A stretch of 64,000 bases of DNA, taken from contig NC_058342.1 in assembly GCF_905475395.1 (NCBI RefSeq), positions 21,982,640 to 22,046,639 on the forward strand, in the 5' to 3' direction. This document shows, one piece after another, positions 3,264-24,119 of this stretch (positions are counted from its first letter, which is position 1; every line of letters starts with the position of its first letter). Made by a program: the position numbers and the translations under genes. The DNA is from Chrysoperla carnea (taxonomy: Eukaryota; Arthropoda; Insecta; Neuroptera; Chrysopidae). Under the pieces are notes generated by a model. That model worked only from the letters and a program-made list of their open reading frames with translations. It was not told the origin of the DNA and made no database searches.

Positions 3264-3265
<2 letters not shown>

Positions 3266-3293
3266 CTGGTCCGGAAGAAAAACGACACAAGTC
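3264..3293. repeat. left terminal inverted repeat
   Basis: Pairs with 6854-6883 with two mismatches. The inner half contains the same AACGACACAA core as the subterminal repeats. Confidence 0.9.
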
Positions 3294-3340
3294 TAAAAAC
3301 CACTATTTTAACCTTTTGGTGCCAAGCGACTTCAAAAAAA

Positions 3341-3730
3341 TAACTTTTTGTGCTAGAAAAACGTCACAATATTAGTGTTCTTTTTCGGCGCCATGGAGCA
3401 GTTATGTCGTTTATCATTATGGTGTGAACCGTTCCCCACTTAGGAAGAAGAACGACACACATCAGTTGTGCTTAAGACCTACTAATGAATGTACATGCAT
3501 AATGTCGAGAAAAACGACACAAGTTGGTAAGTTGTATTTTTTTAAATAAATAATCATGTTTTATAATCGACAAAAACGACACAATTTGGGTTATGTCGTT
3601 TTTCATGATGCACAAGTTACATTATTACTATTTCTTGTACACACATACGTAAATATGACGTTTTTCTTGTGAAATGTCTACTATTATATGAGTAATATTC
3701 CGGATTAATCTCAAAAAGTGTCGTTTTTAG
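3341..3730. promoter_or_regulatory. subterminal repeats, possible transposase-binding sites
   Basis: A GAAAAACGACACAA-like core recurs, exact or with 1-3 changes, near 3280 (in the TIR), 3355, 3449, 3510 and 3570, and in inverted form near 3403, 3592, 3656 and 3717. A further copy lies near 6640 (GAAAAACGTCACAAG). Clusters of short repeats near transposon ends are typical transposase-binding sites. The role here is inferred. Confidence 0.6.
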
Positions 3731-3781
3731 TGATTATGTTTTTAATAAACGAAAAAGTTATTGTTATTTTTGTGACGTATA

Positions 3782-4010
3782 CTCAGCTCCAAAGAAAAAA
3801 ACCGACAATAAAAAAAAACCATTTACAAAAAACTCGATTTGGATAGTCTGTGTAAGAATTTTTAGACTTTTAGTTAATAATTGCTTTAATATAATTAATT
3901 ATGAATAAAATTCTTGCTAACTAACTATATAAAAATTCATATGCAGACAATCGAAATCGAGTTCTTTGTAAATAGGGTTTTTTTTAGTGTCGGTTTTCTT
4001 TGGAGCTGAG
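3782..4010. mobile_element. MITE nested in the transposon
   Basis: The ends are long inverted repeats of about 75-80 bp with scattered mismatches (CTCAGCTCCAAAGAAA... and its complement ...TTTCTTTGGAGCTGAG). Both sides are flanked by TATA (3778-3781 and 4011-4014), which may be target duplication or TIR. It lies just 5' of the first recognisable transposase exon. Confidence 0.8.
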
Positions 4011-4075
4011 TATACATAGGAAATAATTGTAGTCAAGTCTTATGGAATAATGACCAGTATTTGCACATTTTTCAG

Positions 4076-6337
4076 GAAATCCAAGCGAGCGAAGTAAACT
4101 TCTTATGCTACTTGCTAAGAAGAATATGCAATGGACAATAAAGGGTGATAGTACAAACCTGGAAAGTAAACGCATTATGGCGGTCCTTTCTACCGGACAA
4201 GCAGGTAATAAATTTGAATCCATTTGCCTTTAGGTTGGCATTTCTTCCTTACATGGTTCGGTATTTTAAAAACCAATGCGTAATTCTTACAGAGACCGAT
4301 GAGACTGCCCTTACGGAAACTTTGCCGATCGGAGTGACTTCAACAACAGTTTCAGAACTTCAGTCTCACGAAGCAATGAACGAGAGTGGAAAGTCTGATC
4401 TCACAGAAACTTCTGAGGCTACGATGTTTTCTGTGGCACCAGTTCCTAAACAAGGGCTTGCTCCCGATACAAGTGATAAAAGCGATTTTAGTGACGATGA
4501 TAGCGTGAAGGACCCAGACTTTCTTGTCCCTAAGGATGACATGCCACCTTCTGATGTCACCACTGATGATACTGATATTGATGATGATAATAATGTGGTA
4601 ATTCCGAAGAAGAGAAAAACAAATTCTGCGACTGAAATAGTTCAGAAAGGAAGAAAAAGAGTTCGACATGAAGAGAAGTGGAAGAAGACGAAAGCTAAAT
4701 TACTTAAGGCACATGGAAAAAGTTACACATCGTTCGGCAAAAGTACAAGTATAGTTTTAGCCAAAGAAATCGGCCCTGTTTGTGAAAATAAATGCAGACT
4801 AAAATGCTACCAAAATATGAAAGATGAAGATAGGACCCACATCTTTCAATCTTTCTATGCTTTAGGAAGCACTGAACGACAGCACAGCTTTATATCGTCC
4901 AGTATTGAGGAAATACACCCCAAATACGAGTATAAGCGAGAAAACAGCAAGCGAATTCCCAATAACGCATTTTTTCTCCATACTCGAGACAATGTACGTG
5001 TGAGAGTTTGCAAGACTTTCTTTAAGAACACACTTTCAATTACTGATCGGCCAATACGGACGATTTTGACAAAAAAGAGTTCTTATGTGTTTCAAGACAA
5101 TCGTGGTAGGCATGGAAACCACAAAACTGTTCCTGAAGAGATAAAACAGTCCATTAGGAACCACATTGACAAAATCCCACGCATTGAAAGCCATTACTGC
5201 AGGGCAGATTCTAAAAAAACTTACATTGAAGGAGGAAAAACAATTAGAGACTTACACAGGGATTACTTAGAGGAGTGTCGTGAAAATAAAAAAACACCTG
5301 GAAATTACGTTATGTATTCGCGAATATTTAATGAGGAGTACAACATGGCTTTTTTTGTTCCTAAGAAGGATCAGTGTGAACTGTGCACATCCTACCAACA
5401 TGCCGAAGATGAAGCTAAAGCCAAAATGCAAGAAAATTACGAAACTCATTTGATGGAAAAAGAATTATCCCGACAAGAAAAGACAACAGACAAGAATGGT
5501 GAATCTACCGTTGCTGTTTACGATCTACAAGCAGTGCTACCTTGCCCAATTGGTCAAACTTCCCCATTTTATTACGTTAGTAAATTAGCGGTGTATAATT
5601 TCACAATTTGCAATATTAAAAACAATGAGGTGCACTGCTACACCTGGCATGAAGGAGAAGCACATAGGGGAGCAATAGAAATAGGGAGTTGTGTCCTAAG
5701 CTATTTGTCTCTCTTAAATAACAAGAGTACTGCTCCAGAAGACGTAATTTTTTACAGTGACAATTGCGCAGGCCAACAAAAGAATCAATTTATTATAGGC
5801 ATGTACCTATATGCTATTCAAAAGTTTCCAAATATTAGAAGCATTTCTCACAAATATCTCATAACTGGCCATACGCAAAATGAAGGCGACGCTGCTCACT
5901 CTATTATTGAACGGCAAGTTGCCAGAGCTAGAAAAGCAGGGCCTATCTATTTACCGGATCAGTATTACACCCTTATAAGAACAGCCAAGAAAACAGGAGA
6001 CCCCTATATTGTTCATGAATTATGCCACAAAGATTTTATAGATATAAAGCAACTGACGAAAGATCAAGGAATCCAAATTAAAATACCTTTAAAAGATATT
6101 AAAATTTTAAAAGTAATCAAAGAAGAGCCAAACACTGTATATTATAAAACATCTTTTGGGTTCCCTGAATATGATGAAATAACTGTCAGCAAGAGAACGC
6201 GATCACAGAATGTTAAAGCAAAGCCAGCCTACCACACGAAGGTCGGAATTACCGATTCGAAGAAAAGGGGACTTCTTTCATTAATAGAAAAAAATTGTGT
6301 ACCTCAGTGCTATAACAATTTCTACAGTAGTTTGTAA
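4076..6337 (+). CDS. spliced transposase, DDD type, Sola-like
   Basis: Encodes the putative transposase. Two exons are clear: 4076-4204 (acceptor TTTTTCAG, donor GTAATA) and 4293-6337 (acceptor TTCTTACAG). They join in frame (CAAGCAG to AGACCGATGAG) and give about 724 residues plus whatever lies further 5'; no upstream ATG exon is certain. The frame through the intron happens to be open with a GTG start at 4145, which is probably misleading. Domain order: acidic Ser/Thr-rich N-region, basic patch (PKKRKT, KGRKRVRHEEKWKK) near 4605-4690, Cys pairs (CENKCRLKC), the ESHYCRADSKKTY block, CELC pair, then a catalytic-like core with D at 5522-5524 (YDLQ), D at 5759-5761 (YSDNCAGQQKN) and D at 5888-5890 (GH..NEGD). 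This core is shared with DUF7869-type proteins and, I believe, Sola transposases. No stop or frameshift interrupts it. Confidence 0.75.
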
Positions 6338-6853
6338 AGAATTAAAATGAATTTCCTTGTACTAAGGCCCCTATCAGACGCTACGTCTTTTCGCCGTGCG
6401 CCGTGTAATTTTATGTGATTTTATATTGTGATGTGTAACAATTTTATGTGATTTTTACAACAATAAAAAGATAGCCTATTTAAAAGCATTATTTCTTCCT
6501 AATTTTTTAGAGATTACTACAGACAAAATAAGTAGGTAGGTAAGTAAAGGGCAGACAAATTACTCTGCAGTCCTGAAGATCATTTTTTTGGCATAATCTT
6601 TCGTCATAAGTGCTGTCTTATGTTCAGATATGAAAGCATGAAAAACGTCACAAGTCAAAGTTGGTTGACTAATTTTATTCCCCATCTCACAATTTTCATT
6701 ATTAAAAGTTGAAAACATCGTAACCGCATTTCAATAGTATATCCTTAATTTTAATCGCCTAAGGGTTCCGCAAAAATTCTTATCATTAGCTGTACAAAAA
6801 AAAAAGATTATATAATAAACTTAAATGTCTCCTCCTGAAAAATGTATCATTTT
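6338..6853. other. 3' region of the transposon
   Basis: Follows the transposase stop (TAA, 6335-6337). It includes AATAAA near 6463, a subterminal repeat near 6640 and otherwise AT-rich DNA up to the right TIR. Confidence 0.5.
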
Positions 6854-6883
6854 GACTTGTGCCATTTTTCTTCCGGACCAGCG
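6854..6883. repeat. right terminal inverted repeat
   Basis: Inverted copy of 3264-3293, ending ...CTTCCGGACCAGCG directly at a TA array (6884-6908). Confidence 0.9.
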
Positions 6884-6908
6884 ATATATATATATATATA
6901 TATATATA

Positions 6909-7160
6909 TTGGTGCATCGAATTTCTAACGCAGATTCCCTGAACTGAATTATTTGAGAATTGCCAACTAATCAAATTCTCTTAATAATATCCCGAATAAA
7001 TTCATTTTTTATAAATTCTTTCTCAAGATGATTTTTGCATGATTGTATTTATTTTAATATAAATAGAATTATTTTTTCTAGCTTGAGTTAGTCTTTCATT
7101 CAAGTGAACTTGATAATTTTTGTTTTATAATTTTGATAAGTAATAAAAAAAAATAAAAAA
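6909..7160 (+). promoter_or_regulatory. copy 1: conserved upstream region of the small spliced gene
   Basis: Starts TTGGTGCATCGAATTTC after the TA run and is nearly identical to 18254-18490; a shorter form with internal deletions lies at 9824-9952. It contains a TATA-like box TATAAATAG at 7058-7066 (also at 9902-9910 and 18403-18411) followed about 35-40 nt later by a pyrimidine-rich AGTCTTTCATTC initiator-like stretch. The spacing fits a core promoter. Function is inferred. Confidence 0.55.
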
Positions 7161-7161
7161 A

Positions 7162-7572
7162 ATGTCAACACCACTATGTTTGTATCTATATTATTTAGTG
7201 TCAACAAGTATGTTTAAAATTTTATTGTTAACTAATAAATTATTAATTATAATTTTTTGTTTTTAAGTGCAAATAGGAAATGCTAGAGACACCATAATAT
7301 GGATGATTGAGGGGGATTACCCGCATGAGTGTAGGCTATATGAGGTGGCCTACTTAATAACTTTCAGTAAGTCTCAATTTTTTTTTTTTTTTAGAATAAT
7401 TTATTAAAGGTTTTTTATTATTTTTAGCGCCGGATAATTATCTTGTTAGGGCAATGGAAATTGCCCAACAATTAGTTGAAGATAAAATTCAACAAGAGAT
7501 TGAAAGTGAGTTATTTGTATGCTTTTTTTCTTTTTTGTATGATTTCTAATGTTTTTTTATTTTTCAGGTTAA
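7162..7572 (+). CDS. copy 1: small four-exon gene, unknown hypervariable family
   Basis: Exons 7162-7207, 7268-7366, 7428-7505 and 7568-7572 splice with canonical GTATGT/TTTTTAAG, GTAAGT/TTTTTAG and GTGAGT/TTTTCAG sites, all in phase 1, and encode 75 residues with the stop TAA two codons into exon 4. The protein starts with a short Tyr/Leu-rich stretch (LYLYYLVST), then a middle exon with HECRLYEVAYLITF, then DNYLVRAMEIAQQLVEDK, probably helical. There is no clear signal peptide and no known domain that I recognise. Two paralogues lie at 9953 and 18493. The shared pattern is YYL-ST-MQI, HEC-x-LY-x3-YL-x2-F and DNY-x3-A-x-EI-x3-L. Introns are more conserved than exons between copies. Downstream lies the tail of a Polinton-type gene in opposite orientation, so it may be mobile-element cargo. 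Confidence 0.6.
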
Positions 7573-7906
7573 TATTTATGATATATTTTTATATGTATTT
7601 TTTTATTTATATTTTTTTATATGTATTGTTTTATACTTTTATATGTATTGTTTTATACTTTTATATGTATTTTTTTTTTTTTTTATTTTTTTTTTAAATA
7701 TTAAATACATGAAAAAAATTTAATTTTTTTATTAAAATAAAACCTTCTTACATTACATTACATTTAAAATATTGGGTTGTTATTTACAATATTTCTGCAT
7801 TTTGCAAATATTGACAAGAAAAAGAATCCATATTCTGTATCTGTTGCATACATAATTACAAGAAATTACCGTATGTTGTATTAGAATTATCCCATGAGAT
7901 TAATCC
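7573..7906. other. 3' region of copy 1
   Basis: T-rich tandem stretches (TTTTATATGTATTG units, 7585-7680), then an ACCTTCTTACATTACATTAC block (7742 on) repeated at 10484 in copy 2. At 7881-7904 a TTAGAATTATCCCATGAGAT block matches the region just past the 3' end of the minus-strand gene at 11564-11606. The homology stops at about 7905, where errantivirus sequence begins. Confidence 0.6.
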
Positions 7907-7907
7907 A

Positions 7908-8731
7908 CAACGGCTTCTGAATTTAATGAACAAATAGCACTAGACATAGTGGGCCCTCTTCCCCTAACTAGAAATGGTAATCGATTTATACTTACCATTC
8001 AGGATAGCTTAACTAAATTTATCCAAACTTATGTCCTCCCTGACCATAACGCTGAAACGACAGCCATACATTTTATTAAATATTGCACGATTTTTGGATT
8101 CCCCTCATATATTCTGACCGACCAAGGCTCAGAATTCACTTCTAAACTTTTCAAGGAAATTACCAAATTTCTTTCGGTACACCACAAGTTATCCAGCCCA
8201 TATAGACCACAGACGAACGGGTCATTAGAACGTATTCACCTCACCCTTAAGGATTACCTGAAATGTTATATAAATACAAGTCATTATAACTGGGACGAAC
8301 TACTTTCACTTGCTACATTTTCTTACAATTCCCATCGACACTCTTCAACCGGTGAATTACCCTACAAATTGGTATACGGTATTGAGCCTAACGTACCAAC
8401 CTCAATATCAAACCCAAAAATAAAACCCAATTATCAGGAACTTACTCGCGATATCACCTCCAAACTAAAGAAAATTAGAGAAACGGCCAAGGAAAACCTA
8501 ATAAAAGCCAAACATCAGAATAAAATACATTATGACAAAACTCATCACAATGAAGCTAAATTTTATAACGGACAATTAGTACTACTGTACGACAAATTAT
8601 CGAAACTTCAATATAAAAAACTTAACCCGAATTACAAAGGACCATATAAAATAATACAAGTTCATCCTAATCATACAGCCTCTTTGGAAATAACGAAAAA
8701 CAAATTCAGGACGTATCACTTGATTTTTTGA
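7908..8731 (+). pseudogene. errantivirus (Ty3/gypsy) integrase fragment
   Basis: A reading frame of about 274 codons, open from 7908, is the C-terminal pol region of an insect endogenous retrovirus. It shows the integrase core with LDIVGPL (first Asp), LTDQGSEF (second Asp) and QTNGSLERIH (catalytic Glu), followed by a basic linker and a GPYKI motif of the GPY/F module. The zinc-binding N-domain, RNase H, reverse transcriptase, protease and gag are absent: the element is cut at about 7907, directly against the tail of small-gene copy 1. The frame ends at TGA 8729-8731. Env follows 41 bp later, the usual order. As a truncated piece it cannot be a functional element. Confidence 0.85.
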
Positions 8732-8772
8732 AACAATTCCTCTCAGACACAACGAGACCCTAAATTACAACA

Positions 8773-9786
8773 ATGGTTAAACTCGTGTTCGCTCTTATAA
8801 TGCTCTCAATCCTTAGTCATTTTCCCGTCTCTACTTCAAGATTATTGACACCCGACAGACCAAGCCACATTACAAAAGTAAACTCAACTTCCGGACTCTT
8901 TTATAAATTAATGGGATCTACTCAACTTACTAATTCCAATTACAAGCTAGTAAATTTCTATAACTTTTCCATTATAGAAGAACAAATGGAGCTTATAGAA
9001 AAACATTACGAAAAATCAATGAATCTTTGTCACTTAATAACGTTACAAACCCTGAATCGATTCTTTTGTATTCAAGAATTAAAAATACTTCAGGATCGAA
9101 TGACTGACACCAAACGAAACATTAGGACGTTAACGCATCATTTTCAAGCGGAAACCCGAGTCAAGCGTGGAATACTGAATGGAGTGTCGTATCCACTTAA
9201 ATGGCTTTTCGGTATACCAAACGCGGACGACAACGAGTTTTACGCTAACTAGATCAAAAACTTGATAAGTGATCAACGACAAACACACACCCTAATGCAA
9301 GAACAGATACACGTAATAGAATCAACTATCAAAGACTTTAATGACAATGTGACAAATTTAAAAACAAACGACGAAACATTGAACAAAAATCTTTTATTAT
9401 TTAATGAATTTTCAAGGAATATCACGGACTCAGTTAACAGAGACGATATAGAATTATCCGTGATAGACCACATTTGTTTACTGAACCAATTAACTTCCCA
9501 ACTTACAATAACCGTGGACAGATATCTACTTAGCCTTACTCTTATTCGACACGGTATTATTGACTATAACACTATCAACCCGACGGTACTTTTTAATGAA
9601 TCACAAAAATTATCCCAAAGTTATAAATTACCACTCCCAATAATCTTGTCCAACATCGAAAGCTACTACGATATAATGACTATAAAATCCTTAATCTTTA
9701 ACAACGTACTATATGTTCAGATAGAAATTCCTGTAGAAATTATAGATAGAAAAGATTCCTGTAGAAATAGAAATTCTGTAGGCTGA
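8773..9786 (+). pseudogene. errantivirus env, N-terminal part, broken by a stop
   Basis: Two consecutive frames in the same phase, 8773-9252 and 9253-9786, are separated by an in-frame TAG at 9250-9252. The first begins with a hydrophobic signal-peptide-like segment (residues 1-20) and carries a furin-type cleavage motif (RVKR) followed by a glycine-rich, hydrophobic fusion-peptide-like segment. The second is mostly helical ectodomain and ends in a short duplicated stretch (ATTCCTGTAGAAAT units near 9728-9780). No transmembrane anchor is present here; a matching env C-terminus lies at 19170-19523. With the stop and the missing end this copy is dead. The env type is the gypsy/errantivirus class known from insects. 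Confidence 0.8.
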
Positions 9787-9823
9787 CGATCTGCAGTTAA
9801 TAACAGAATACCGTGTATATATA

Positions 9824-9952
9824 TTGGTGCATCGAATTTCTAACACAATCCTGAATAAATTCTTTCTCAAGATGACTTTTGCAGGATTGCATTTATTTTA
9901 ATATAAATAGAATTATTTTTTCTAGTTAAACATAAAAGTTAATTTTTTTAAA
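9824..9952 (+). promoter_or_regulatory. copy 2: upstream region of the small spliced gene
   Basis: Begins TTGGTGCATCGAATTTC after a short TATATATA run, lacks roughly 100 bp present in copies 1 and 3, and keeps TATAAATAG at 9902-9910. Confidence 0.55.
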
Positions 9953-10299
9953 ATGGAGCAAGTTCAAATGTATCATCAAATTTATTATTTAATATCAACA
10001 AGTATGTTTAAAATTTTAGTGTTAACTAATAAATTATTAATTATAATTTTTTGTGTTTTTAAGTGCAAATTCAAACGGCAGTACAAGTTCTGCAGGTGTA
10101 TATCAATGAGGGTATAATCCACGAGTGTGGATTATACCAAATAATATATTTATTAGCATTTAGTAAGTCTTAATTGTTTTTTTCTTAAGATAATTTATTA
10201 ATGAGTTTTTATTATTTTAGAACTGGATAATTATATCAATATGGCCCTAGAAATTACTATAAATTTAATCAGACAGCATGAGGGAAATAATGTGAAGTG
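9953..10299 (+). CDS. copy 2: small spliced gene, diverged paralogue
   Basis: Exons 9953-10001, 10064-10162 and 10221-10296 are in frame with the same intron positions as copy 1. Without further splicing it ends at TGA 10297-10299 reading NNVK; a GTGAGT donor at 10297 and TTTTTCAG acceptor ending at 10360 are kept but the phase differs by one from copy 1. The protein of about 75 residues retains YYL-ST-MQI, HECGLYQIIYLLAF and DNY...A.EI, while most other residues changed. Exon 2 matches copy 1 at only 47 of 99 bases, but intron 1 differs by one substitution and a 2-nt insertion. All frames are open, so neutral decay does not explain the differences well. Function unknown. Confidence 0.55.
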
Positions 10300-10660
10300 A
10301 GTACTTTATATGTTCAATTTTATTTTAAAATTTCTAATGTTTTTTGTTTTTATTTTTCAGGTTAATATTTATGATATATTTTTTATTAATTAATATTTAT
10401 GATATATTTTATATTTTTATATGTATTGGTTTTTTAAATACATGAAGAAAATTTTAAATTTTTTTTTTTTTTATTAAAATAAAACCTTCTTACATTACAT
10501 TACATTTAAAATATTACATCTGTTGCATACATAATTATTCAAAATAATTATCATCTGGACCATTAGAATTATTCTATGAGATAAATTCATTTGGTTGATG
10601 AGGCTCTAGTTGTTCAACATTGGGTTAAACAGGTCTGTATCTAGGATATGTAAATTTAGA
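10300..10660. other. 3' region of copy 2 with tail of a minus-strand gene
   Basis: Repeats the ACCTTCTTACATTACATTAC block of copy 1, then 10563-10626 resembles 11564-11628, the 3' end of the minus-strand small gene at 11607-11966. This places the small spliced gene tail-to-tail with that gene in the ancestral element. Confidence 0.55.
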
Positions 10661-10667
10661 ACAGCGT

Positions 10668-10860
10668 TTGCTCATGGTTTTCATTCATCATGGACACCGG
10701 AAATATTCACCAATCGCGAGGTGAAACATCCCAATTACAAACCTAAGAACATGTTTACTGAATGACTACAACAACGATGATATAAAGGGCGGTTTCTATG
10801 CGGTTGCTAAGAATTACAAAAAGTTCACAATCCAAAGTGGATCGCTTTTGTGAACATATT
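10668..10860 (+). pseudogene. Polinton/Maverick integrase C-terminus, degraded copy
   Basis: In shifting frames the translation shows WTPEIFT and, after frameshifts, DYNNDDIKGGFYA, the linker typical of Polinton-type retroviral-like integrases before the chromodomain. It parallels the better copy at 11208. Stops and frame changes make it a relic. Confidence 0.6.
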
Positions 10861-11119
10861 TGTGTTTTAAAAAAGGAAATGTATTTTTTAATATGAATAT
10901 ATATTAGACTAGGTTAATATGATCATGAAATTTTATTGAAGCAATTTTTAACTAACACAAAACAATATAAAAATATTGTTGTAATACAAATGTTTTTTTT
11001 TGATTCATGTTTATTACTCAAAATTACTTGATGGTGTGAATATAATTGTCACAAACAAGGTGTATTTATAACCTGAAAATAAGGTGGTGAGGTCATTTCA
11101 TAGATAAAACAAAACAATG

Positions 11120-11210
11120 ATTAATTAAATTATAGTTTGACCTGTTTAATACTGGTCTGTATCTGTTTAATACTGGTTTTAACCTGTTTAATACTGGTCT
11201 GTATCTGCTT
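11120..11210. repeat. short tandem repeat CCTGTTTAATACTGGT
   Basis: Three imperfect units of about 20-25 bp (CTGTTTAATACTGGTCTGTAT) between the two integrase relics. Confidence 0.75.
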
Positions 11211-11405
11211 ACAAACCCAAGAACATATTTACTGAAGGACTACAACAACGATGATATAAAGGGTGGTTTCTATGCTGAAGAATTACAAAAAGTTTACGAT
11301 CCAAACATTAATTTAGTGGAAAAGGTCTTAGCTAAACGTGGATCCAAATTTAAAGTCCGGTGGTTAGGGTTCGACTCTTTACATGATTCATATATTGATA
11401 AAAAA
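11208..11405 (+). pseudogene. Polinton/Maverick integrase C-terminal chromodomain fragment
   Basis: An open frame reads TYLLKDYNNDDIKGGFY, ELQKVYDPN, then LVEKVLAKRGSKFKVRWLGF and a SYIDKK end. This is the junction of the SH3-like end of the integrase with its chromodomain, as found in Polinton (Maverick) INT proteins and related F54H12.3-like genes. Only the last 65 residues or so are present. The chromodomain aromatic and W positions (KVRWLGF) are kept. No catalytic core is seen, so this is a fragment. It sits between small-gene copy 2 and the minus-strand small gene, supporting a Polinton origin for this block. Confidence 0.75.
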
Positions 11406-11606
11406 AAAGTCTCCTTTTATAGTGGAACGAATTTTTATTGTAAGTTTCTTATTTAAAAAAACAGTGTTGTATTATAAATATTTAAAAATAAAAATACATA
11501 GAGTTTATAAAATGATTTTTTATTCAGAAATTTCTGATGTATTTAATACAAAACGTCTGTTGTATTAGAATTACCCATGGGATTAATTCGCTTGGTTGAT
11601 CAGGCT

Positions 11607-11966
11607 CTATTTGTTCAATATTGGGTTGATCTGGTTGCCATCTTCGTTAACATCGTCTTCGAATAGGCGCAGCGTTAATTGTTGACTTCTTCCAATTTTC
11701 TCCTCCACCCTCAAATACCCCGGTTTCGTGTTAAATAATTTAATCATATTGTCCGTCAACACTGCAAACCTAGATGGTAGAAAAACTCCCTCGTTTTCTG
11801 TACCATCTAGGCTTATATCCAGTAAAACTTTTATTGATGGCCCATGTTTCGTTAGAATCCGCTCCATTTTTAGTATTTTTAATTTTTTTTTCAGTGGCAA
11901 GTCGTCCATTTTTATGCATGGTCGCACTAAACAACTATCTAATAATTTTAATTCTGCTCTATTCAT
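11607..11966 (-). CDS. small Polinton-type protein, possible OB-fold
   Basis: A single minus-strand frame of 119 residues with an ATG at 11966-11964. The core reads LPLKKKLKILKMERILTKHG, then VLLDIS and GVFLPSRFAVLTDNMI, and ends in an acidic tail. The pattern 'interacts, truth-keeping beta strands, FLP.R' resembles small proteins I associate with arthropod Mavericks that are thought to have an OB-like fold and bind single-stranded DNA; this is memory of a pattern, not a search. The frame is uninterrupted. Its 3' flank (11564-11606) recurs at 7881-7904 and 10563-10605, after small-gene copies 1 and 2. Neighbouring integrase fragments fit a Polinton. Could also be a domesticated host copy. Confidence 0.5.
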   Translation of the reverse strand: MNRAELKLLDSCLVRPCIKMDDLPLKKKLKILKMERILTKHGPSIKVLLDISLDGTENEGVFLPSRFAVLTDNMIKLFNTKPGYLRVEEKIGRSQQLTLRLFEDDVNEDGNQINPILNK

Positions 11967-11999
11967 TTTGATTAATATTATGAATATTTTATGAAAACT

Positions 12000-12730
12000 G
12001 ATATTACCGTAATGTCGAGCGCCTTTTTTATATGATTACCACCACTCCAAAAATCCCCCACCAGCAGAAATTATTATCTAATCTCATAACGTGTAAAATT
12101 ATTTTAAGATCTAATGCGATTCAAACAAGTTTAAACATGTATTTTTATCATGTAAATTTCAAGTGTCATATTACATTGCTGAATCATATAAAAATATTAA
12201 CATCCGGTCACGTGTCTTGAATTTTATCATGTATATTTAAGGTGTCAAATTACATTTGCCGAATCATTCAACATATTCTTGAGAATTGCTGACTAATAAT
12301 ATTCTTTTCTTGGAATGCAGACTTGCAAATTATTATCTAACACGTTCAAGTGTCATATTACATTGTTGATTCATAAAAAAATATTAACATCCGGTCACGT
12401 GTCTTGACACGTGTAAAATTATTTTAAGTCGATTCAAACAAGTTTGAACTTGTAACAGGATGATGATATCATATTTTTCAAGGTCAAATCTATTTCAACA
12501 TAAAAAAAATAAACATCCGGTCACATGTCCTTGAACGATTTTTATCATGTAAATTTCAAGTGTCATATTACATTGCTGATTCATAAAAAAATATTAACAT
12601 CCGGTCACGTGTCTTGACACGTGTAAGATCAAAGTCGATTCAAACAAGTTTGAACTTGTAACAGGATGATGATATCATATTTTTCAAGGTCAAATCTATT
12701 TCAACATATTCTTGAGAATTGCTGACTAAT
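12000..12730. repeat. complex tandem repeats, AACATCCGGTCACGTGTCTTG units
   Basis: The motif ATTAACATCCGGTCACGTGT occurs near 12196, 12385 and 12593, with a variant near 12510. Between them CGATTCAAACAAGTTTGAAC and the TCATATTTTTCAAGGTCAAA block also repeat (about 12430 and 12640). The unit is roughly 190-210 bp. GAGAATTGCTGACTAAT (12279 and 12714) resembles GAGAATTGCCAACTAAT in the small-gene upstream repeat (6955), hinting that this is an internal or terminal part of the same element. Confidence 0.7.
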
Positions 12731-12930
12731 GTCAACGTCCCGCTCTCCGTTCACTCCCCATCACTATTGGTCAAGCCCCGTTTATATCATTCCTCACCCC
12801 CACCACACCTCCCGACGCCATCTTGATTTACTATTGGCCAATGACGTCATCTATCCCCTCCAACTTCGCATTCAACCGAGGTTTCCAACATTCACCTAGG
12901 TTTGCCCTTTTTGGAAAAGTGTACCATCCA
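12731..12930. promoter_or_regulatory. GC-rich block with CCAAT and CRE-like motifs
   Basis: In sharp contrast to its surroundings this stretch is C-rich and contains ATTGGTCA, ATTGGCCAAT and TGACGTCAT (12839-12849 region). These are CCAAT-box and CRE-like motifs, so it may be a transplanted promoter. No start site can be shown. Confidence 0.35.
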
Positions 12931-13041
12931 ACTGCGCTGAAAGTGGGCTGACTATACTACTTATCCGCTTATCCAAAATGCTAAAATTATATTTTATTTT
13001 TACATGCGATAACAGGTTGTGATGTACATTTTCAAAAGGCA

Positions 13042-13482
13042 ATGAGTGCTTCTCATGCCATTGATACTATCAATCGTAAAATGAAGTCAGCTGTTTCTCC
13101 TGATCCTATTCAACTGCAATTGCAATTGCGTACTGAAAAAAATGATATTTGGAATTATCATGACGATCTTGTAAAAAAAACGGGTGCAGCAAAAAATAGC
13201 ACCGATGGTTTAACTTTTGAATTAAAGCAGTATTTGTCTCAACTAGTCATTTCAAGGACTGAAGATTCTTTAAAACATTGGAATTTACTGCAACCTAGTT
13301 ATCCGAATTTGTACAATGTTGCAATTGAATATTTGTGCGTCGTTGGAACTTCTGTACCGAGTGAACGTCTTTTTTAGACGACTGGAATTATTAAAACTGA
13401 CGATCGGAATCGATTGTCTCCAAATCATCTTAATGAATTATTATTTTCAAGTAGTTTAAGTGCTGAAGACTGGAATTTATAA
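13042..13482 (+). pseudogene. hAT transposase C-terminus with a stop
   Basis: The frame 13042-13377 continues after a TAG (13375-13377) in the same phase to 13482. The end is the hAT dimerisation domain: YPNLYNVAIEYLCVVGTSVPSERLF, then DDRNRLSPNHLNELLFSS and DWNL. The RNase H-like catalytic core and BED finger are missing. The A-rich 5' part begins without a clear acceptor. It belongs with the hAT terminus at 13797-13810. Dead by the stop and by truncation. Confidence 0.85.
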
Positions 13483-13565
13483 TTTTGAGTGAATTTTTCA
13501 TACTGGAATTGATAATTTTGAGTGAATTTTTCAGACTGGAATTGATAATTTTGAGTTAATTTTTC
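13470..13565. repeat. tandem repeat, GATAATTTTGAGTGAATTTTTC
   Basis: Three units of about 38 bp directly after the hAT stop, derived from its last codons and 3' UTR. Confidence 0.8.
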
Positions 13566-13689
13566 GGTTAGTTTTCATATTGATTGTTAATAAAATCTGT
13601 ATTTTATTTACATAATGTTTTATTTATTTAATTAAAAAATTTCACTTAGTAAATAATGTTAAGATTTTTGAATTTTCGCTCCAATTTTA

Positions 13690-13810
13690 ACACTCGATAT
13701 CAAAAATCGATATATCGATATTTTATTTGGAATATCGATAGACCGATAGTATGAAATTCAAATAATCGATGTTACAATATCGATATTTTTTTTAATATCG
13801 CCCACCCCTA
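13690..13810. mobile_element. right terminus of a hAT element
   Basis: Ends ...AATATCGCCCACCCCTA, the complement of a TAGGGGTGGGCGATATT start typical of hAT TIRs. Inside it many ATCGATAT palindromes occur. The left end is not found, so the element is truncated. Confidence 0.65.
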
Positions 13811-14510
13811 ATGATTAACTCTTTTATCATATAGGGACGATATCATTTTGTATAAATTAAAACGGTCACTTGGTTTGACAAATTGTGTAGATTTGGTATG
13901 AACTTATTGTAATTTTTTTTAATACAACTATTTTCGTATTTGTTAAATGCGGTGCACGATTTGTTGAATCAAGTCACTAAGTTAAATTTACGATTCTGTT
14001 CTTTGCTTTTGTACATATTATCTTTATGAATAATTATGAAGGAATACTTGTTACGAAATTGAATTAACATTTTATTTTAAGAATAAAACTCAAAATAATT
14101 AAAAATTTAAATACTGGTTTTTAATATATATTATCTGTTGATTCACGTTTATATTTCAGATTAATTAATTTCACGCTTCCACCTAAATATTTATTTATGA
14201 ATTGAACTTGTTACATATATGAGATTGAATACAGTTAACTCGTAGCTTGAGTAATCAAGTTCGAGAGAATATCTCGGTTAACTACCATTCTCATTAGTAC
14301 TTGTTCATTTCACCCCATTCTTAAAGATATCAAGTAATTTTAGTTTGATCTTCACTATCTGCTTAACTTCTTTTACTATCCCATCGTTTCAAATTTAATA
14401 CCAGAGCGCTACAGAATTAATAGTAGATTTTTCTAAAATAATTACTCACAGCGTATCAAAATTGGTAACATAGCGCGTACCAATCGTATCATGCTCTACT
14501 AAAGCACGTA
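13811..14510. other. AT-rich DNA, nothing recognised
   Basis: Between the hAT end and the piggyBac relic. No supported gene. Confidence 0.35.
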
Positions 14511-14512
14511 AT

Positions 14513-15300
14513 ATGTTGAAAAGATACAACCCTAACAAACCACATAAATCAGGTTATAAGGTCTTTGTATTGTGTGGCGTTTCAGGCTTTGCTTACAAAA
14601 CACAAATAGAAACCGGCAAGCAAAATATTGTTCTGGATGAAGAGCCTCATCTAACGTAGTCATGAGGTTAGCGCGTATGATTCCAAGACACCAGAACTAC
14701 AGGCTATATTTTGACAATTATTTCACGTCTCTCCGTCTATTGGAATATCTAACCAAAGAAGGTATCCTCAGTCTTGGCACAGTGAGAAGAAATAGAATAG
14801 CGGATTGTAAGCTGTCATCAGAAAAGATAATTATGAAAAAAGAAAGAGGGTATTCAGAAGAGTATGTAGCTGACGTCAATGGCATCGATGTCTCAATTGT
14901 TTCCTGGAAGGACAACAAAATTGTCAATCTGGCTTCCACATTCGCTGGGCAAAAGCCTGAAACCGAAGTTCGAAGATGGGATAAACAAAATTCAAGATAT
15001 GTCAACATAAAAAGACCCAATGTGGTTGGAGAGTACAATCGTCATGTGGGTGGCGTCGACCTTCTTGACAGCATCATGGGCATCTATAAGATACGGTTGC
15101 GAAGCAAGCGATGGCATATGCGTCTTTTTTATCACTACTTGGACCTCACGATCGCCAATGCATGGCTACTTTACAAAAGAGTTGCTAAATACAAAAACCT
15201 TGAAGGGTCCGACCGCTTACGATCAGCAGACTTTTGCCTCAATGTTGCGGAGACCCTTTACAAAATGGGTATAAAGCCAAATTTGCTAAATCTATTTTAA
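14513..15300 (+). pseudogene. piggyBac-like transposase, frameshifted
   Basis: A first frame (14513-14659, KPHKSGYKVFVLCGVSGFAY) belongs to the DDE core; it ends in a TAG and the protein continues in another frame from 14662 to 15300. The second part holds RLYFDNYFTSLRLLEYL (the second catalytic Asp of piggyBac-type DDD enzymes), SWKDNK, EYNRHVGGVDLLDS (third Asp) and RLFYHYLDLTIANAWLLYK. The N-terminal third and the Cys-rich C-terminal domain are missing. A related but distinct copy lies at 24120. The frameshift shows it is inactive. Confidence 0.85.
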
Positions 15301-15482
15301 ACTACAGCTTTGATATTCTACACAACAGATCGATATTTTCCCAAAATCCCTTAGCCGCGAAATTGAAGAAAACTTCGAATATATCACGGAACGTGTAAAT
15401 TCTTGTATAAAATATATTTCTAGATTGAAAATAGAAAATGGGCGCTCTGTGATTTATTCTGAAAGAAAAGTTGGAATTTTTG

Positions 15483-15530
15483 GATTTATCATCTGCTTGA
15501 TTAATGCAATCGAATTATTTGAAGTTATAA
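15483..15530. repeat. direct repeat flanking a hAT relic (with 16408-16455)
   Basis: CATCTGCTTGATTAATGCAATCGAATTATTT is present here and again at about 16418-16448. The two copies bracket the hAT relic, so they may mark a duplicated target region or an older element interrupted by it. Confidence 0.7.
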
Positions 15531-15634
15531 ATTTAAAAAAAAGAAAAAAAGAAAAAAAAAGGAATATAAAAAAAAACGATAATGAGGAGTATTACAGGAA
15601 TGATTAAATATTTGACAACGATTAAGCCATCGAG

Positions 15635-15813
15635 TCGATGTTCACTCAATAGCCGTGATGTATATGAGTATCGTAGGATCATCTGTTCCCTGTGAGCGCC
15701 TTTTTTCGCTTGCCGGCAACATCGCAAGTGATGAGCGGAACCGCTTGGATCCCATTAGACTTGACAAATTGTTGTTTTTAAAAAGCTTAGATATGAAGCA
15801 TTGGGAACTATAA
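15635..15813 (+). pseudogene. hAT transposase dimerisation domain fragment
   Basis: The translation reads IVGSSVPCERLFSLAGNIAS, then DERNRLDPIRLDKLLFL and ends KHWEL with a TAA stop, the end of a hAT (ZBED-like) transposase. Only about 58 residues are present. A hAT-type terminus follows at 16060-16171. Confidence 0.85.
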
Positions 15814-16059
15814 GCTATGTTATCTACCCTCTTAACTTTTTAATGTAACAAATACATTTAGAAAATAAATGTCTTCTTTTATATCTGATCTGATATTTTG
15901 ATATGGTAATAAAAATAATTGTAATTATCGAATTCCCTGAACTAAAAAATTCTTGATTTTCTGATAAGAGATCCCAGAGATTGTTTATTATGGTATCATT
16001 CTTGTTTTTCATAAAATGGATCTAAATTTACATTGTAAATAAAAATTTGAAAAAAATTG

Positions 16060-16171
16060 ATTTTTTAGAAATCGATTTTTTAGACCTCGATTTTTTTATG
16101 AATCGATTTATCAGGTTACGATTCGAATCGATTTAAAAATCGATCTTTTTTGGAAAGAATCGCCATCCCTA
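16060..16171. mobile_element. right terminus of a second hAT element
   Basis: Runs of ATCGATTTT and its complement end in GAATCGCCATCCCTA, the complement of TAGGGATGGCGATTC, a classic hAT end. The left end is not seen. Confidence 0.6.
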
Positions 16172-17460
16172 CCATCGACTGGAATAGTAGAGATGACGAG
16201 GAAAATAGCAAAAATATCGACGATAATGAGGAAGTTGGACGTAATTGGTGGTTTGTCCATGGTCCATGACATTTGATGGTGCTGCCGTGAACATAAGTAT
16301 GTGAACTGTGTTAAAAGCCAATTTCGAATATGGTACCAAAAATTTCCAGCCATGATTTTCACATCCCGTGACCAAAGAAAAAGTAATTACTGCAAAAACC
16401 TTTGGGATTTCTCATCTGCTTGATTAATGCAATCGAATTATTTTAAGTTAACACACATTTCGATACATTTTAACATCCAAACTTAACTAAGATGATTTGG
16501 AAGTATTTTTTAGTGCGCTGCGCGGTAAGAGTAGGTTTAATAACAACCATACTGCGTATCAATTCAAAAACGCTTTTAGAAGACTTATTAGTTGACATCA
16601 AATCGAAGGTTCACTACGCGGAAATTGTATTCATTTTGAAGGGCTTGAAATTCTCCAATAGTGGAAAAAAACCTTTGCCCGAGCTCTCTTTTATGCGAAA
16701 AGTGTTTCTGAGGTAGAAAAAAACAAAAATATTGACCACGATTACATACATACTGGGTTAAATACTATTCAAGCTCTAAAGGGGATTTAGAATGAATTAA
16801 ATGAAAAAAAAATATTTTCATTTTAAAGACAAGGTGCTTGCTGTAAGTAAAATTAAGTAAAATTATTATTGGAAAATTTTTTAGGTATGTAAATAAAATT
16901 TCTTATTTTTATCACAATTCTTAATTTTTTTTTTTTTTTTTTTGGAGCACGGTCAGACAATATGATGCTGCAAACACCAATCCGAACTGCGAAGAAATTT
17001 ATGAGAGCGGTTAAAACCGCCACCGCTTAATAAATAAATAATTCAAGTTCCCAGAAAATCTTAAAGATACTTTGTTGAAATAAAAAACATTACAAATAAT
17101 TCAGTAATTTTATATTCAAATGAATTGATAGATATTGAAGAAAGTTCATTTGAATCTACTGCTTATTTATTTACATTCTTTATACAGAAATAGAAAATTT
17201 TTTCATGCCAACTTTGCTCTGAAAGTTTTTCAACGTCGTTATAGGAATGGTTTTGATGAATTTGTAGTGACCATTCCTAATATACAGTATTCAAAAGGAA
17301 TAACGATTACCGAACACACATAGCGAACAAGGAACACGCGCGCTATACATGCGGTGCTCAGTCCCGTATATACAACTAGGATAAGATTTTAGTTCACAGA
17401 AGCCATCGCCTGTGGCGCTAGCAATCTAGTCGACAAAATTTGGCACTTTTTATCACAATA
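16172..17460. other. non-coding or degraded DNA
   Basis: A 74-codon open frame at 16492-16716 has no resemblance I recognise. A T-run lies near 16924-16943. Nothing else is supported. Confidence 0.35.
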
Positions 17461-17540
17461 ATCACATGAAAAATCCTTTTCTCCAGTATTCGTTTATGTT
17501 GAACTAAATTAGATTTCCAGGTAAAGAAGGTTTTTCTGTA
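17461..17540 (-). pseudogene. C2H2 zinc-finger relic
   Basis: The reverse strand reads KTFFTWKSNLVQHKRI followed, after a frameshift, by a GEK-like linker and F.C. SNLVQHKRI is the typical helix of a C2H2 finger. Less than one finger remains. Confidence 0.55.
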
Positions 17541-17776
17541 GGCTCTATTTATGCAACGTTTGAGAATAGTACAGAGATAATGTGTATAGGAACTTTTTTA
17601 CGTCACTGAATACGTACCTAAAATATTTACTATTTTTGCTGAAACACCATGTCTAAATATAAATATATATTTACACAATTCCAAATTGTTTGATTTGATT
17701 TATTTAAATTTATTAATAATTTACAAGCGACTTCACTTATAAGAATTCAATTTTTATATTTTATACTATTTTTCAG

Positions 17777-17886
17777 GGTGAAATGATCGATGAAATTGAA
17801 GACGAGGAAACAATGTCAAATGTAGTTAATGCCCGGAATTTTTGGAGGCTGTCGCCGAAAAAAATAGAGTAATTCTAGCAGAAGAT
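17777..17886 (+). pseudogene. possible orphan exon with a frameshift
   Basis: Bounded by a strong acceptor (CTATTTTTCAG) and donor (GTAAGT). It reads MIDEIEDEETMSNVVNAR, then in another frame EFLEAVAEKNRVILAED, so one base change broke it. No family recognised. Confidence 0.35.
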
Positions 17887-18253
17887 GTAAGTATTTATTC
17901 CTTAATTACTTATATAGTACACATATTATTTGAATATTTTGAGGACTAATACAAAATTGGTAAAAATGATGTAATAAGTGAATTCACAATCGGTATTGGT
18001 GCTTTCTTCTTTCTAAAAGCGTAATTTTTTGAAACCGACTTGCTTACTAAAAAACGTACTTTATTTTAAAGTAAGTCAACCGCTTGAATACTTTATTTTA
18101 TTTTTGTTTTATACCTTTTATTTTATTTTTTTATATTTATTTTGAAAATTATTCGATTCAAACACTTTCTAATTTTTACTGATTTCAAATAATTTATAAC
18201 GCAAATAAAAATTAAATACGTGGGTTAATATTGTATATATATATATATATATA

Positions 18254-18490
18254 TTGGTGCATCGAATTTCTAACGCAGATTCCCTGAACTGAATTATTTG
18301 AGAATTGCCAACTAATCAAATTCTCTTAATAATATCCCGAATAAATTCATTTTTAATAAATTCTTTCTCAGGATGATTTTTGCATGATTGTATTTATTTT
18401 AATATAAATAGAATTATTTTTTCTAGCTTGAGTTAGTCTTTCATTCATTTCAAATTGAAGTTTATAATTTTTGAAGTTTTTTTTTTGAAA
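18254..18490 (+). promoter_or_regulatory. copy 3: upstream region of the small spliced gene
   Basis: Starts TTGGTGCATCG right after a TA array (18235-18253) and follows copy 1 closely; TATAAATAG at 18403-18411. Confidence 0.55.
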
Positions 18491-18492
18491 AA

Positions 18493-18836
18493 ATGTCATC
18501 ATCATTATATTTATATTTGTACTATTTAGTATCAACAAGTATGTTTAAAATTTTATTGTTAACTAATAAATTATTAATTATAATTTTTTGTTTTTAAGTG
18601 CAAATAGGAAATGCTAGAGACGCAATAATATGGATGATCGAGGGAGATCAACATGAGTGTAGGTTGTATGAGATGGCCTATTTACTAACGTTCAGTAAGT
18701 CTCAGTTTTTTTTTATTTTTTTTAGAATAATTTATTAAAGGTTTTTTATTATTTTTAATGCCGGATAATTATCTTGTTAGGGCAATGGAAATTGTCCAAC
18801 AATTAGTTGAAGATAAAATTCAACAAGAGATTGAAA
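18493..18836 (+). pseudogene. copy 3: small spliced gene with a lost splice acceptor
   Basis: Exons 18493-18538 and 18599-18694 splice as in copy 1 and intron 1 is identical to copy 1 over all 60 bases. The protein would read LYLYYLVST, MQIGNARD, HECRLYEMAYLLTF. The acceptor of exon 3 is changed: copy 1 has TTTTTAG at 7421-7427, here the same place reads TTTTTAA (18752-18758), which also creates an ATG at 18758. Exon 3 (18759-18836) is otherwise well kept. The homology ends near 18852, before exon 4. So this copy is probably non-functional or must use a different acceptor. Confidence 0.6.
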
Positions 18837-18889
18837 GTGAGTTATTTGTATGCCTTGTTAGGGGTAGGGGGTGCAACTTAAAAAAGTCA

Positions 18890-19523
18890 AATGGAAACCT
18901 CCAATTTTTTTTGCAGATTCAGATTTGTCAAAATTGTGAATTAGATATATTTATGCAAAAATATAGTCTTATCAAATCGTGATAAAAGATTAGTGAAACT
19001 TAATAATAATTTATGGTACCCATTACCAAATTTATCATCATGGATTTTTATTTGTGTTGTCACTAAATCTGTGACGGTCAATTGTGATGATTTGACTTTT
19101 GATTTGAAATTAAACAACACTTGAATATTTAAATTAGAAAATGAAAATTGTAAGGCGTATACTTCTTTTGTGGAGTTACAACCGAAACGTGTCAGGAATA
19201 ATATCTTAGAAGTTGACTTTATTCCCGAATTGTACATTCAAAAATTTAACATTAGTAAATATGTTTCATTTTTAGAAAACAGTTCGATTAATACAAATAT
19301 GTCATTCAAATATAAACATATTAGTTTTGAAAATATAAACGAAGTCAGTCATAGATTCACTGACTTAGATAAGTCCATGGATATTTTAAAATTTAATAAC
19401 GATCACAGTAATGTGACTTCGCAACAATCGTATTTAATTTATATTATCATAACACTAGTAATTGTAATATTAATATATTTAATCATTTCTAGAATTAAGA
19501 AATATTGTAAACATTTAAACTGA
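18890..19523 (+). pseudogene. errantivirus env C-terminus with membrane anchor
   Basis: The open part (19170-19523) ends with a segment of about 20 hydrophobic residues (YLIYIIITLVIVILIYLII) followed by a short basic tail, as in insect retroviral Env anchors; the sequence before it is ectodomain-like with N-glycosylation sites. Upstream (18890-19169) the match continues in broken frames. The N-terminal env part at 8773-9786 has the same orientation but is 9 kb away. An LTR-like unit follows. Truncated and broken. Confidence 0.65.
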
Positions 19524-20188: not shown

Positions 20189-20602
20189 ATTTATAGTAAA
20201 AACTATTACTTAATTATAAACAAAGTTTTGTTTAATATTATTATTATTTTTTATATTTATTTAAACTGACATAAATTTAATAATTTTGCTGACGAGCCAA
20301 ATATTTTAAAATAATACGTCACGATAGCCAATATGTTGGCCCACAATTAACTATATAAAAAGACAATGTAAAATTATTAAAAGTATGCAGTGATTATACA
20401 ACTTGAAATAACATCGTAATAATACAGTGACTTACAAGTTTTTACTTCAACTTAATTTGTAACAAACATCGTTAACTTTATAAATAAATAATTTTCAAAC
20501 TCATTGAATAAATAAAAAATAAACGAATATCAGTGCAATTTTGTTAATTTTGGACATTGGATTTCAACATTGCTGCAACAATTTAAAAAGAGTAACATAA
20601 CA
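20189..20602 (+). repeat. partial LTR, family L, copy 1
   Basis: Its first 220 bp are nearly identical to 22735-22955 (GCTGACGAGCCAAATATTTT and ACTATATAAAAAGACAATG, a TATA-like box). It lacks the TGTTAGGCCCTGG start, cut where the errantivirus LTR ends. TGGTGTGCAGCGG at 20604 looks like a primer-binding site, so this would be a 5' LTR. Confidence 0.6.
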
Positions 20603-22662: not shown

Positions 22663-23352
22663 TGTTAGGCCCTGGACAGCGTTATCCTTAAAATAGTGGT
22701 TCTAATACACTAAATCAATCATATTTTTAAGTAAAAACTATTACTTAATTATAAACAAAGTTTTGTTTAATATTATTATTATTTTTTTATATTTATTTAA
22801 ACTGACATAAATTTAATAATTTTGCTGACGAGCCAAATATTTTAAAATAATACGTCACGATAGCCAATATGTTGGCCCACAATTAACTATATAAAAAGAC
22901 AATGTAAAATTATTAAAAGTATGCAGTGATTATACAACTTGAAATAACATCGTAAAAGCATGCAGTAATTATTTAACCTTGATGATCAAGCTAAATTGAA
23001 ATCAACAAATTATTAATAATCAAATACAACAGTATTATTAGTGTAATTAAATATTCGTTTTAAGAGAAATCAAAAGTGTTGGTTATTTTTCTAGAAGGAT
23101 TTTCCTGATTAATCCTTCACAATAAACAATCAGGTGGTGGCAGCATCTTCCCTGGACCATACCAAAATACAGTAATATAACATTATACAACTTGGACTTA
23201 CATCTTTACAATACTGTGATTATTACAACCTAAGTTTAAAATCTATGAACGTAAACCATCAATCAATAAAGTGATATTATATAAATTTAAAAAAAGTCGT
23301 TTTCATCTACAAAGGATTCATAAGGTCTCTCCTTTCTAAATACAAAGACCTT
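22663..23352 (+). repeat. LTRs of family L, two joined copies
   Basis: Starts TGTTAGGCCCTGGACAG after the purine tract, carries the TATA-like box near 22889 and reaches a primer-site-like GGTGGCAGCATCTTCC at 23135. A second LTR end (ACTTGGACTTACATC..., about 23195) follows at once and meets a second TTTGGTGGCAGCATC at 23351. This suggests a nested or recombined pair. Confidence 0.55.
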
Positions 23353-24119
23353 TGGTGGCAGCATCTTCCCCTGGACCAAACCAGGTACTTGACCAGATAA
23401 GGGATTGGATGATCACTATCTGGAGAAGACTGTTTGAAACATGCCAATTTTCTTTTTTTAAACCATCGAGGAAATTTGACAAATTAAAAAATTTTCTTAG
23501 GTCGTTAACTTTTTTACGTTCGCAAACTGGAAACACTTTTTAAATAATTTCTGTATTCAAAAATACTTTTTTTTGTTTAAATTTAGTAATAACCAGAATA
23601 CATTTGAATAATTTTCAAATGTATTCTGTCCCGTCGAAAGGTTCTTTAAAACTATCGTCGATTTAAATGGAGCGACAGAAAGTCATAATTGTTTTTGGAA
23701 AAATTGCTAAATTTTGTGATTTAAGCAAAATAGCATACATTCAGCATATTGAATTATTAAATGAACTAACAACTGTAAATGCGATTTGAATGTCTTCTGT
23801 GTTCACAAATATTTATTCGAAATTCAATAATACCTTTATATAATCATCACCCTTCCTGAAAATTTCTTCAAACCATCGACGATTTAAATGGCGTAACAAA
23901 AATTAATTAGATAACTGTTTTAGGAAAAATTCCAAAATTTATGTAAAACATATAAAAATTGAAAAGATAAGGGATTGGATAATCACTATCTGGGGAAGAC
24001 TGTTTGGAACATGCCAGTTTTCTAATCAAAATTGTTTAAAATATTTTTTCGCAAATGATTAACTCAAAAAAATTTCTTAATATTTCATAAAAATTAGATT
24101 CTCTCCGAAATTTATTTTT

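Follow-up and report, generated by a model that had tools for sequence, protein, structure and literature searches.

How can a small spliced gene keep its introns more conserved than its exons? The question is raised by gene c, which occurs in three copies (c1, c2 and c3) in a stretch of 64,000 nucleotides of the lacewing Chrysoperla carnea (NC_058342.1, chromosome C6, positions 21,982,640 to 22,046,639), referred to here as the window. The answer favoured here, with a probability of about two in three, is that old types of a c cassette, whose introns are constrained, have been exchanged among copies of Polinton/Maverick elements. Gene c is an accessory gene of these elements in C. carnea, and the window holds one element end and two element fragments. 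A preliminary description, which was made from the letters of the window alone, located the three copies, and its positions hold. The copies lie on the plus strand and have these parts:

6909..7101, plus strand: c1 promoter region, from the TTGGTGCATCG start to beyond the TATAAATA box (7058-7065, by eye), with 2/149 and 0/44 substitutions against c3
7162..7207, plus strand: c1 exon 1, 46 nt, phase 1
7208..7267, plus strand: c1 intron 1, 60 nt, GT-AG
7268..7366, plus strand: c1 exon 2, 99 nt
7367..7427, plus strand: c1 intron 2, 61 nt, GT-AG
7428..7505, plus strand: c1 exon 3, 78 nt
7506..7567, plus strand: c1 intron 3, 62 nt, GT-AG
7568..7800, plus strand: c1 exon 4 (stop within its first codons) and 3' region with an AATAAA-like signal
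9953..10001, plus strand: c2 exon 1, 49 nt
10002..10063, plus strand: c2 intron 1, 62 nt
10064..10162, plus strand: c2 exon 2, 99 nt
10163..10220, plus strand: c2 intron 2, 58 nt
10221..10296, plus strand: c2 exon 3, 76 nt, frame shifted against type II relatives
10297..10360, plus strand: c2 intron 3, 64 nt
18493..18538, plus strand: c3 exon 1, 46 nt
18539..18598, plus strand: c3 intron 1, 60 nt
18599..18694, plus strand: c3 exon 2, 96 nt
18695..18758, plus strand: c3 intron 2, acceptor AA, not AG
18759..18836, plus strand: c3 exon-3-like stretch

All three copies have the promoter, the order of exons and the positions of introns in common, but the splice sites and exon number, also said to be shared, differ in c3: its intron-2 acceptor is damaged, and exon 4 is absent, since the homology ends within intron 3 (about 18856-18859). 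Copy c1, judged by frame, stop and splice ends, is intact and encodes 75 amino acids (aa). Copy c2 was said to show no frame loss, which is true of exons 1-2; in its exon 3 the frame is shifted against that of close relatives, and the stretch read contains no stop. Intron 1 of c1 matches c3 at 60 of 60 positions and c2 at 59 of 60 plus a 2-nt insertion, exactly as first reported, and exon 2 of c1 and c2, aligned without gaps, is identical at about half of its bases (48/99, not the 47 counted before). A 23-base pattern spanning exon and intron 1 occurs three times in the window against 0.01 occurrences expected from shuffles, more often than chance would give.

Between c1 and c3, exons 1 and 2 differ at 21 of 142 sites, against 0 of 60 in intron 1 (Fisher p 6e-4). 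Fourteen of these changes are synonymous and seven nonsynonymous (rates per site dS 0.80 and dN 0.065, dN/dS 0.08), whereas random placement would make 15 of the 21 nonsynonymous (P 1e-4); this synonymous excess indicates that exons 1-2 are coding and under purifying, not diversifying, selection. Exon 3 is as conserved as the introns in this pair, with 2/78 substitutions and no synonymous change in 13.7 sites, so the contrast between c1 and c3 is restricted to exons 1-2.

A genome search with c1 gives 36 matches, which lie on chromosomes C1, C3, C5 and C6 and on an unplaced contig. Among the matches listed, those on C1 all fall within its terminal 2 Mb (138.2-138.8 of 139.98 Mb), most of those on C5 lie at 72.8-74.0 of 76.4 Mb, and C6 is matched along much of its length. 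The matches form 30 loci, and 29 of them were read (L036, which overlaps L022, was excluded). A locus was called intact when it has a product of 70-82 aa, a stop, and GT-AG at every intron found; 19 of the 29 are intact, with products of 74-77 aa. Types I (c1-like), II (c2-like) and III differ at more than half of their synonymous sites and still keep frame, splice ends and length; in type II the stop falls already in exon 3. These intact loci, together with the synonymous excess, uphold the view that c is a real spliced, protein-coding family, the splicing being predicted from sequence.

The same results bear on the suggestion that the apparent gene is an artefact of dead transposon debris. 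Damage is seen in two of the three copies in the window, which is full of many kinds of repeats, as debris would be; 19 of 29 loci that keep frame, splice ends and length, and a synonymous bias with P 1e-4, are not expected of it, and this explanation is hardly credible.

Gene c would be driven by its own TATA-type promoter starting from TTGGTGCATCG, and its product would be read from three short coding exons separated by introns of about 60 nt. The sequence TTGGTGCATCG occurs 141 times in the genome, against 46 for a reversed control, which indicates that the promoter start is over-represented; some occurrences form inverted pairs 65-69 bases apart. In seven type II loci (L027, L028 and L030-L034) the c promoter is preceded, at a distance of about 350 bases, by another copy of itself, which is divergent and for which no gene was found. 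The sequence TGGTGCATCG, which presumably resembles the complement of the 3' end of tRNA-Gly, was considered as a primer-binding site of a long terminal repeat (LTR) and rejected, as it lies upstream of a TATA box and inside a Polinton.

For the comparison of introns and exons, dN, dS and intron divergence were computed for 23 copies; L021, L037 and L038 were left out by the splice-site script (an intron donor of L021 is visible by eye), and L019, L020 and L022 lack parts. The 23 copies give 253 pairs, which are not independent; 251 of them fall in five bins of the proportion of synonymous differences (pS) and two lie outside. With mean pS of 0.011, 0.098, 0.314, 0.485 and 0.767, the mean proportion of intron differences (intron p) is 0.009, 0.013, 0.029, 0.075 and 0.157, and that of nonsynonymous differences (pN) is 0.011, 0.044, 0.098, 0.237 and 0.350. 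Among the 239 pairs with pS > 0, 237 have an intron p lower than pS, and 237 of 242 have one lower than pN. Of four non-overlapping pairs of sister types, three give one-sided Fisher p of 5e-12, 0.02 and 3e-8, and the last is non-significant (0.08). Introns therefore appear to change about 5-10 times more slowly than synonymous sites, a pattern of rates that is observed and whose cause is a matter of interpretation. The higher conservation of introns that was noticed in the window is thus genome-wide, and only for c1 and c3 is it limited to two exons. The assumption that decay would hit introns first does not fit, as introns lag behind synonymous sites across the sampled range of divergence.

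Purifying selection that holds splice signals and compact introns would explain this slow change. The conserved intron blocks include the splice ends and the TTTCTAATG- or TTAACTAAT-like branch sites (recognised by eye). In trees of 16 copies, types II and III are recovered both by introns (supports 1.000 and 0.999) and by exons (1.000 and 0.941); this agreement, with the introns slower, fits constraint on introns. Other properties of the RNA were considered and discarded. By folding against shuffles, c1 intron 1 has no hairpin (z 0.59), and a mirtron or structured intron was rejected because folding is no better than in shuffles (z 0.59, 0.46, 0.81 and -0.11). The idea that the mature mRNA evades RNA silencing was rejected because the 3' untranslated region (UTR) is conserved between c1 and c2 (13/151 substitutions, with numerous gaps).

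The preliminary description compared c to diversifying families such as venom and cys-motif genes, in which positive selection, or mutation targeted to exons, would act on a host effector. A divergent exon 2 that stays in frame between c1 and c2, a small orphan protein and the use of venom by lacewing larvae (PMC12758981) are all compatible with such a family. The rates of change are not: pN is lower than pS in 238 of 239 pairs, and none of the 45 representative pairs reaches a dN/dS of 1 (the highest value, 0.78, involves few changes), so diversifying selection is not supported. Exon 3 of c1 and c3, which is free of synonymous changes, means that exons are unevenly affected. The N-terminus of c1, c2 and c3 has no K or R in residues 1-15 and no strong hydrophobic signal, as judged by hydropathy only (best 12-residue values 1.53, 0.85 and 1.22), and one cysteine is common to most of the 19 intact products, which do not show the six-cysteine knot pattern of cys-motif genes. 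A host effector or venom-type family is very improbable also because the copies lie within Polintons.

As had been stated before, no homologue of c is found with c1 as query; matches to PDB and Pfam are at chance level only, and viral and bacterial collections give no match. A PHROG match of c2 (2.4e-4, 18 residues) was taken as chance.

The carrier of c is best seen in four c-bearing elements of 15,045, 13,996, 14,477 and 12,836 bases (the last length by arithmetic), which lie on C6, C6, C3 and C1 and are 92-99.7% identical across multi-kb pieces. In all four, the inverted ends start with AGTAGAAGAGTCA and the terminal 13 bases are identical at both ends; the terminal inverted repeats (TIRs) are built of tandem units of about 229 bp, and L039 4090-6438 is inverted relative to L040 and L051. 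Perfect 6-bp target duplications flank each of the four elements tested (ATTATG, CTTATT, TATACG and ACTACT), and 6 bp is the length of a Polinton target duplication. Among these and sister elements, PolB (PF03175) is matched in L050 (69-788; 1.6e-14) and in L040 (5456-5701; 5.5e-8), where a 555-aa open reading frame (ORF) beside the match has no Pfam match at 0.1. An A32-like ATPase (PF04665) is matched in L049 (5.6e-6, 26.5 bits against a cut-off of 22.8) and by a shorter ORF in L040 (E 0.034). In elements of the L011 type, c lies downstream of this ATPase gene on the same strand, the ATPase ORF being a few hundred bases upstream.

PolB, ATPase, TIRs and 6-bp duplications together identify the elements as Polinton/Maverick elements. 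PolB and a DDE integrase are named as hallmarks of Polintons (PMC6431247). Putative integrase pieces at 10640-11456 of the window match the Pfam family Chromo weakly, below the cut-off (E 0.067). These pieces carry what we take to be the C-terminal motif of a Polinton-type integrase, and the rve match (PF00665) at 7949-8728 is part of a gypsy/errantivirus fragment. Two observations concern the elements themselves: L045 and L046 (C1, 138.29-138.30 Mb) are one 12.8-kb element with two type II c copies in opposite orientations, and a near-perfect 3.7-kb palindrome (L039 1-3726, 99.5%) borders on an element from outside.

The age of c relative to its carrier was studied in the 19 copies for which exons and an ATPase match are available; no such match exists for c1, c2 and c3 of the window. 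In the pairs L011-L010, L011-L028 and L013-L028, pS of the ATPase is 0.010, 0.021 and 0.021, while pS of the c exons is 0.453, 0.654 and 0.627 and intron p is 0.032, 0.137 and 0.137. Along L011 and L028, identity is 93-98% upstream and about 0.5-0.75 across the exons, with exon windows down at about 0.5-0.6. It is 0.92 in the window of intron 1 and returns to 93-98% at a distance of about 0.9 kb; the promoter windows align poorly too. The c types are thus much more diverged than the adjoining ATPase gene, and the cassette would be older than the backbone in some pairs. In the 670-base flank, five sites link L013/L015 to type II (17-163) and eight link them to type I (493-624), which places a breakpoint about 430-760 bases upstream of the c start; the chance of this site order is 1/1287 and the support in the flank tree is 0.942. 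These ordered sites indicate that the c cassette was swapped between backbones at least once, in one clade.

Several results weigh against old, exchanged types with constrained introns. The low backbone divergence of 1-2% is true of some pairs only: where c has a pS > 0.3 (135 pairs), pS of the ATPase averages 0.25 and reaches 0.65, and the ATPases of type III elements are diverged as well (to that same maximum). The ATPase of several elements looks unconstrained (L011-L010, pN 0.024 against pS 0.010), which suggests a young or decaying flank. Five further flank sites (53-625) link types I (L011/L014) and II and fit the order of neither grouping. No capsid family was found by Pfam in the 13 element ORFs scanned. 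Transcription of c, like its splicing, is predicted, and the protein is an orphan whose function is a guess.

Other results in this group hint at homogenisation. Intron 1 of c1 and c2 is closer than introns 2 and 3 (1/60 against 15/114, p 0.012), and intron 1 of L018 and L035 is identical (0/61) at a pS of 0.84. These fit an explanation in which short-tract gene conversion homogenises introns, promoter and flanks, and exons escape because conversion is selected against or blocked by mismatches there, comparable to the SSSGP genes of the Hessian fly. Recombination between copies is observed, and c1 and c3 form a mosaic in which the promoter (2/149), intron 1 (0/60) and the stretch from intron 2 to exon 3 are nearly identical and the 5' UTR and exons 1 and 2 are diverged. 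Conversion would need tracts as short as one 60-nt intron flanked by half-different exons, and intron divergence rises with exon divergence, the exon types being recovered by intron trees. Conversion as the main cause is therefore rather unlikely, though well above the other alternatives.

If c exists as a number of old types (I, II, III and further ones) that have recombined among backbones and have constrained introns, the question is what keeps the types. A cassette near synonymous saturation on backbones that may differ by 1-2% is a sign that diversity of types is selected for within a mobile element, and many old types kept on similar backbones suggest a frequency-dependent benefit; an advantage of rare types would keep them there. 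It may tentatively be proposed that the c protein acts inside the cell as a small and mostly helical regulator, involved in type-specific immunity between co-resident elements or in evasion of a host factor, although this is doubtful. A little less likely still is a multi-type recognition cassette, in which types kept by rare-type advantage, through superinfection immunity between elements or escape from a host factor, are swapped between near-identical backbones and the introns serve as conserved scaffold for the exchange; if true, a transposon would have come to behave, in population-genetic terms, like an immune or incompatibility locus.

Known systems resemble c in part. Polintons, which are also called polintoviruses and include the adintoviruses of animals, are generally placed close to the origin of many eukaryotic DNA viruses, and the lacewing elements share with them PolB, the A32-like ATPase, long TIRs, 6-bp duplications and a length of about 13-15 kb. 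They differ in the 75-aa orphan gene with three introns in strongly diverged cassette types, which was not met in the literature found, and the capsid genes and protease of Polintons were not identified in them here. To our knowledge, little is known about the function of Polinton accessory genes in animals. Nematode Mavericks carry the cargo genes wosp and krma, according to a meeting report (PMC10680173). No prior description of such a cassette was found in the literature searched, and no paper on Chrysopidae and Polintons is among the matches listed.

For the intron pattern, the nearest precedent is the SSSGP family of the Hessian fly (PMC2955719), which consists of small genes with conserved promoter, UTR and intron and diverged coding regions, and for which concerted homogenisation was proposed; their products have signal peptides and several pairs have dN/dS > 1. 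Gene c is likewise small and more conserved in noncoding than in coding parts, but has no convincing signal peptide by hydropathy, a dN/dS below 1 and a mobile element as carrier.

Alleles of the major histocompatibility complex (MHC), or human leukocyte antigen (HLA), genes have homogenised introns at a host locus, with dN/dS > 1 at binding sites. Like c, they combine old coding types with a background that is younger and recombines, and c differs as a gene of a mobile element in which dN/dS > 1 is not seen. Ichnovirus cys-motif, conotoxin and snake PLA2 genes have exons more diverged than introns, which c shares; they are secreted, cysteine-rich and under positive selection, whereas c has one conserved cysteine and is under purifying selection. 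Gene c is thus a worked case in which positive selection on a host toxin does not follow from introns being more conserved than exons, and it calls for caution in searches for effector and venom genes.

In the window, the parts assigned to Polintons are as follows:

6906..7904, plus strand: Polinton fragment 1 with c1, from the promoter to the 3'-end remnant of gene B; 88.7% against L049 4782-5777 (C6, 11.22 Mb) over 1026 columns
9773..12949, no strand assigned: Polinton end with c2, the remnant of a B-like 3' end, pieces of a putative integrase C-terminus, gene B and terminal repeats; DNA matches to L039-L050 elements throughout
10562..10634, minus strand: 3'-end remnant of a B-like gene, convergent with c2; 82% against 11564-11635
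10640..11456, plus strand: putative integrase C-terminus pieces with a chromodomain-like end; a piece is repeated at 10735-10836 and 11209-11305
11607..11966, minus strand: gene B, a 119-aa orphan ORF convergent with c; a relative in L049/L011 is 96% identical over 322 nt
12089..12949, no strand assigned: terminal inverted repeat region with tandem units; the window copy ends without the last tens of bases that match element ends
18251..18859, plus strand: Polinton fragment 3 with c3; 86.4% against L049 4782-5419

Fragments 1 and 3 are Polinton pieces cut by other transposons; fragment 1 borders on a DUF7869 transposon in a (TA)n run at its left and on a gypsy/errantivirus fragment at its right. 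A B-like 3' end is found downstream of c in 19 of the 30 loci. The homologue search for gene B gave two candidates, none at E 0.01, and its fold prediction is unusable (pLDDT, a confidence score, of 37).

The window also contains other repeats. The DUF7869 transposon, which has inverted ends CGCTGGTCCGGAAGAAAAA, occupies 3264-6882, in the (TA)n run that adjoins the c1 promoter. The product of a 730-aa ORF at 4145-6337 matches a C. carnea protein with 100% identity over 93% of its length. The gypsy/errantivirus fragment at 7949-9786 is truncated at its 5' end and has an integrase core (PF00665) and the N-terminal half of a Baculo_F-like env. An ORF similar to the C-terminal part of env (weak Baculo_F, E 0.026) lies at 18880-19523, immediately 3' of the truncated c3. 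A hAT dimerisation piece is found at 13042-13377, and two ORFs for piggyBac-type transposases (DDE_Tnp_1_7) at 14662-15300 and 24226-24756. Identical direct repeats of 173 nt, which are probably parts of LTRs, lie 2.5 kb apart at 20247-20419 and 22783-22955, and direct repeats of 53 to 134 nt (families D1, D6 and D7) are clustered at 23636-27936.

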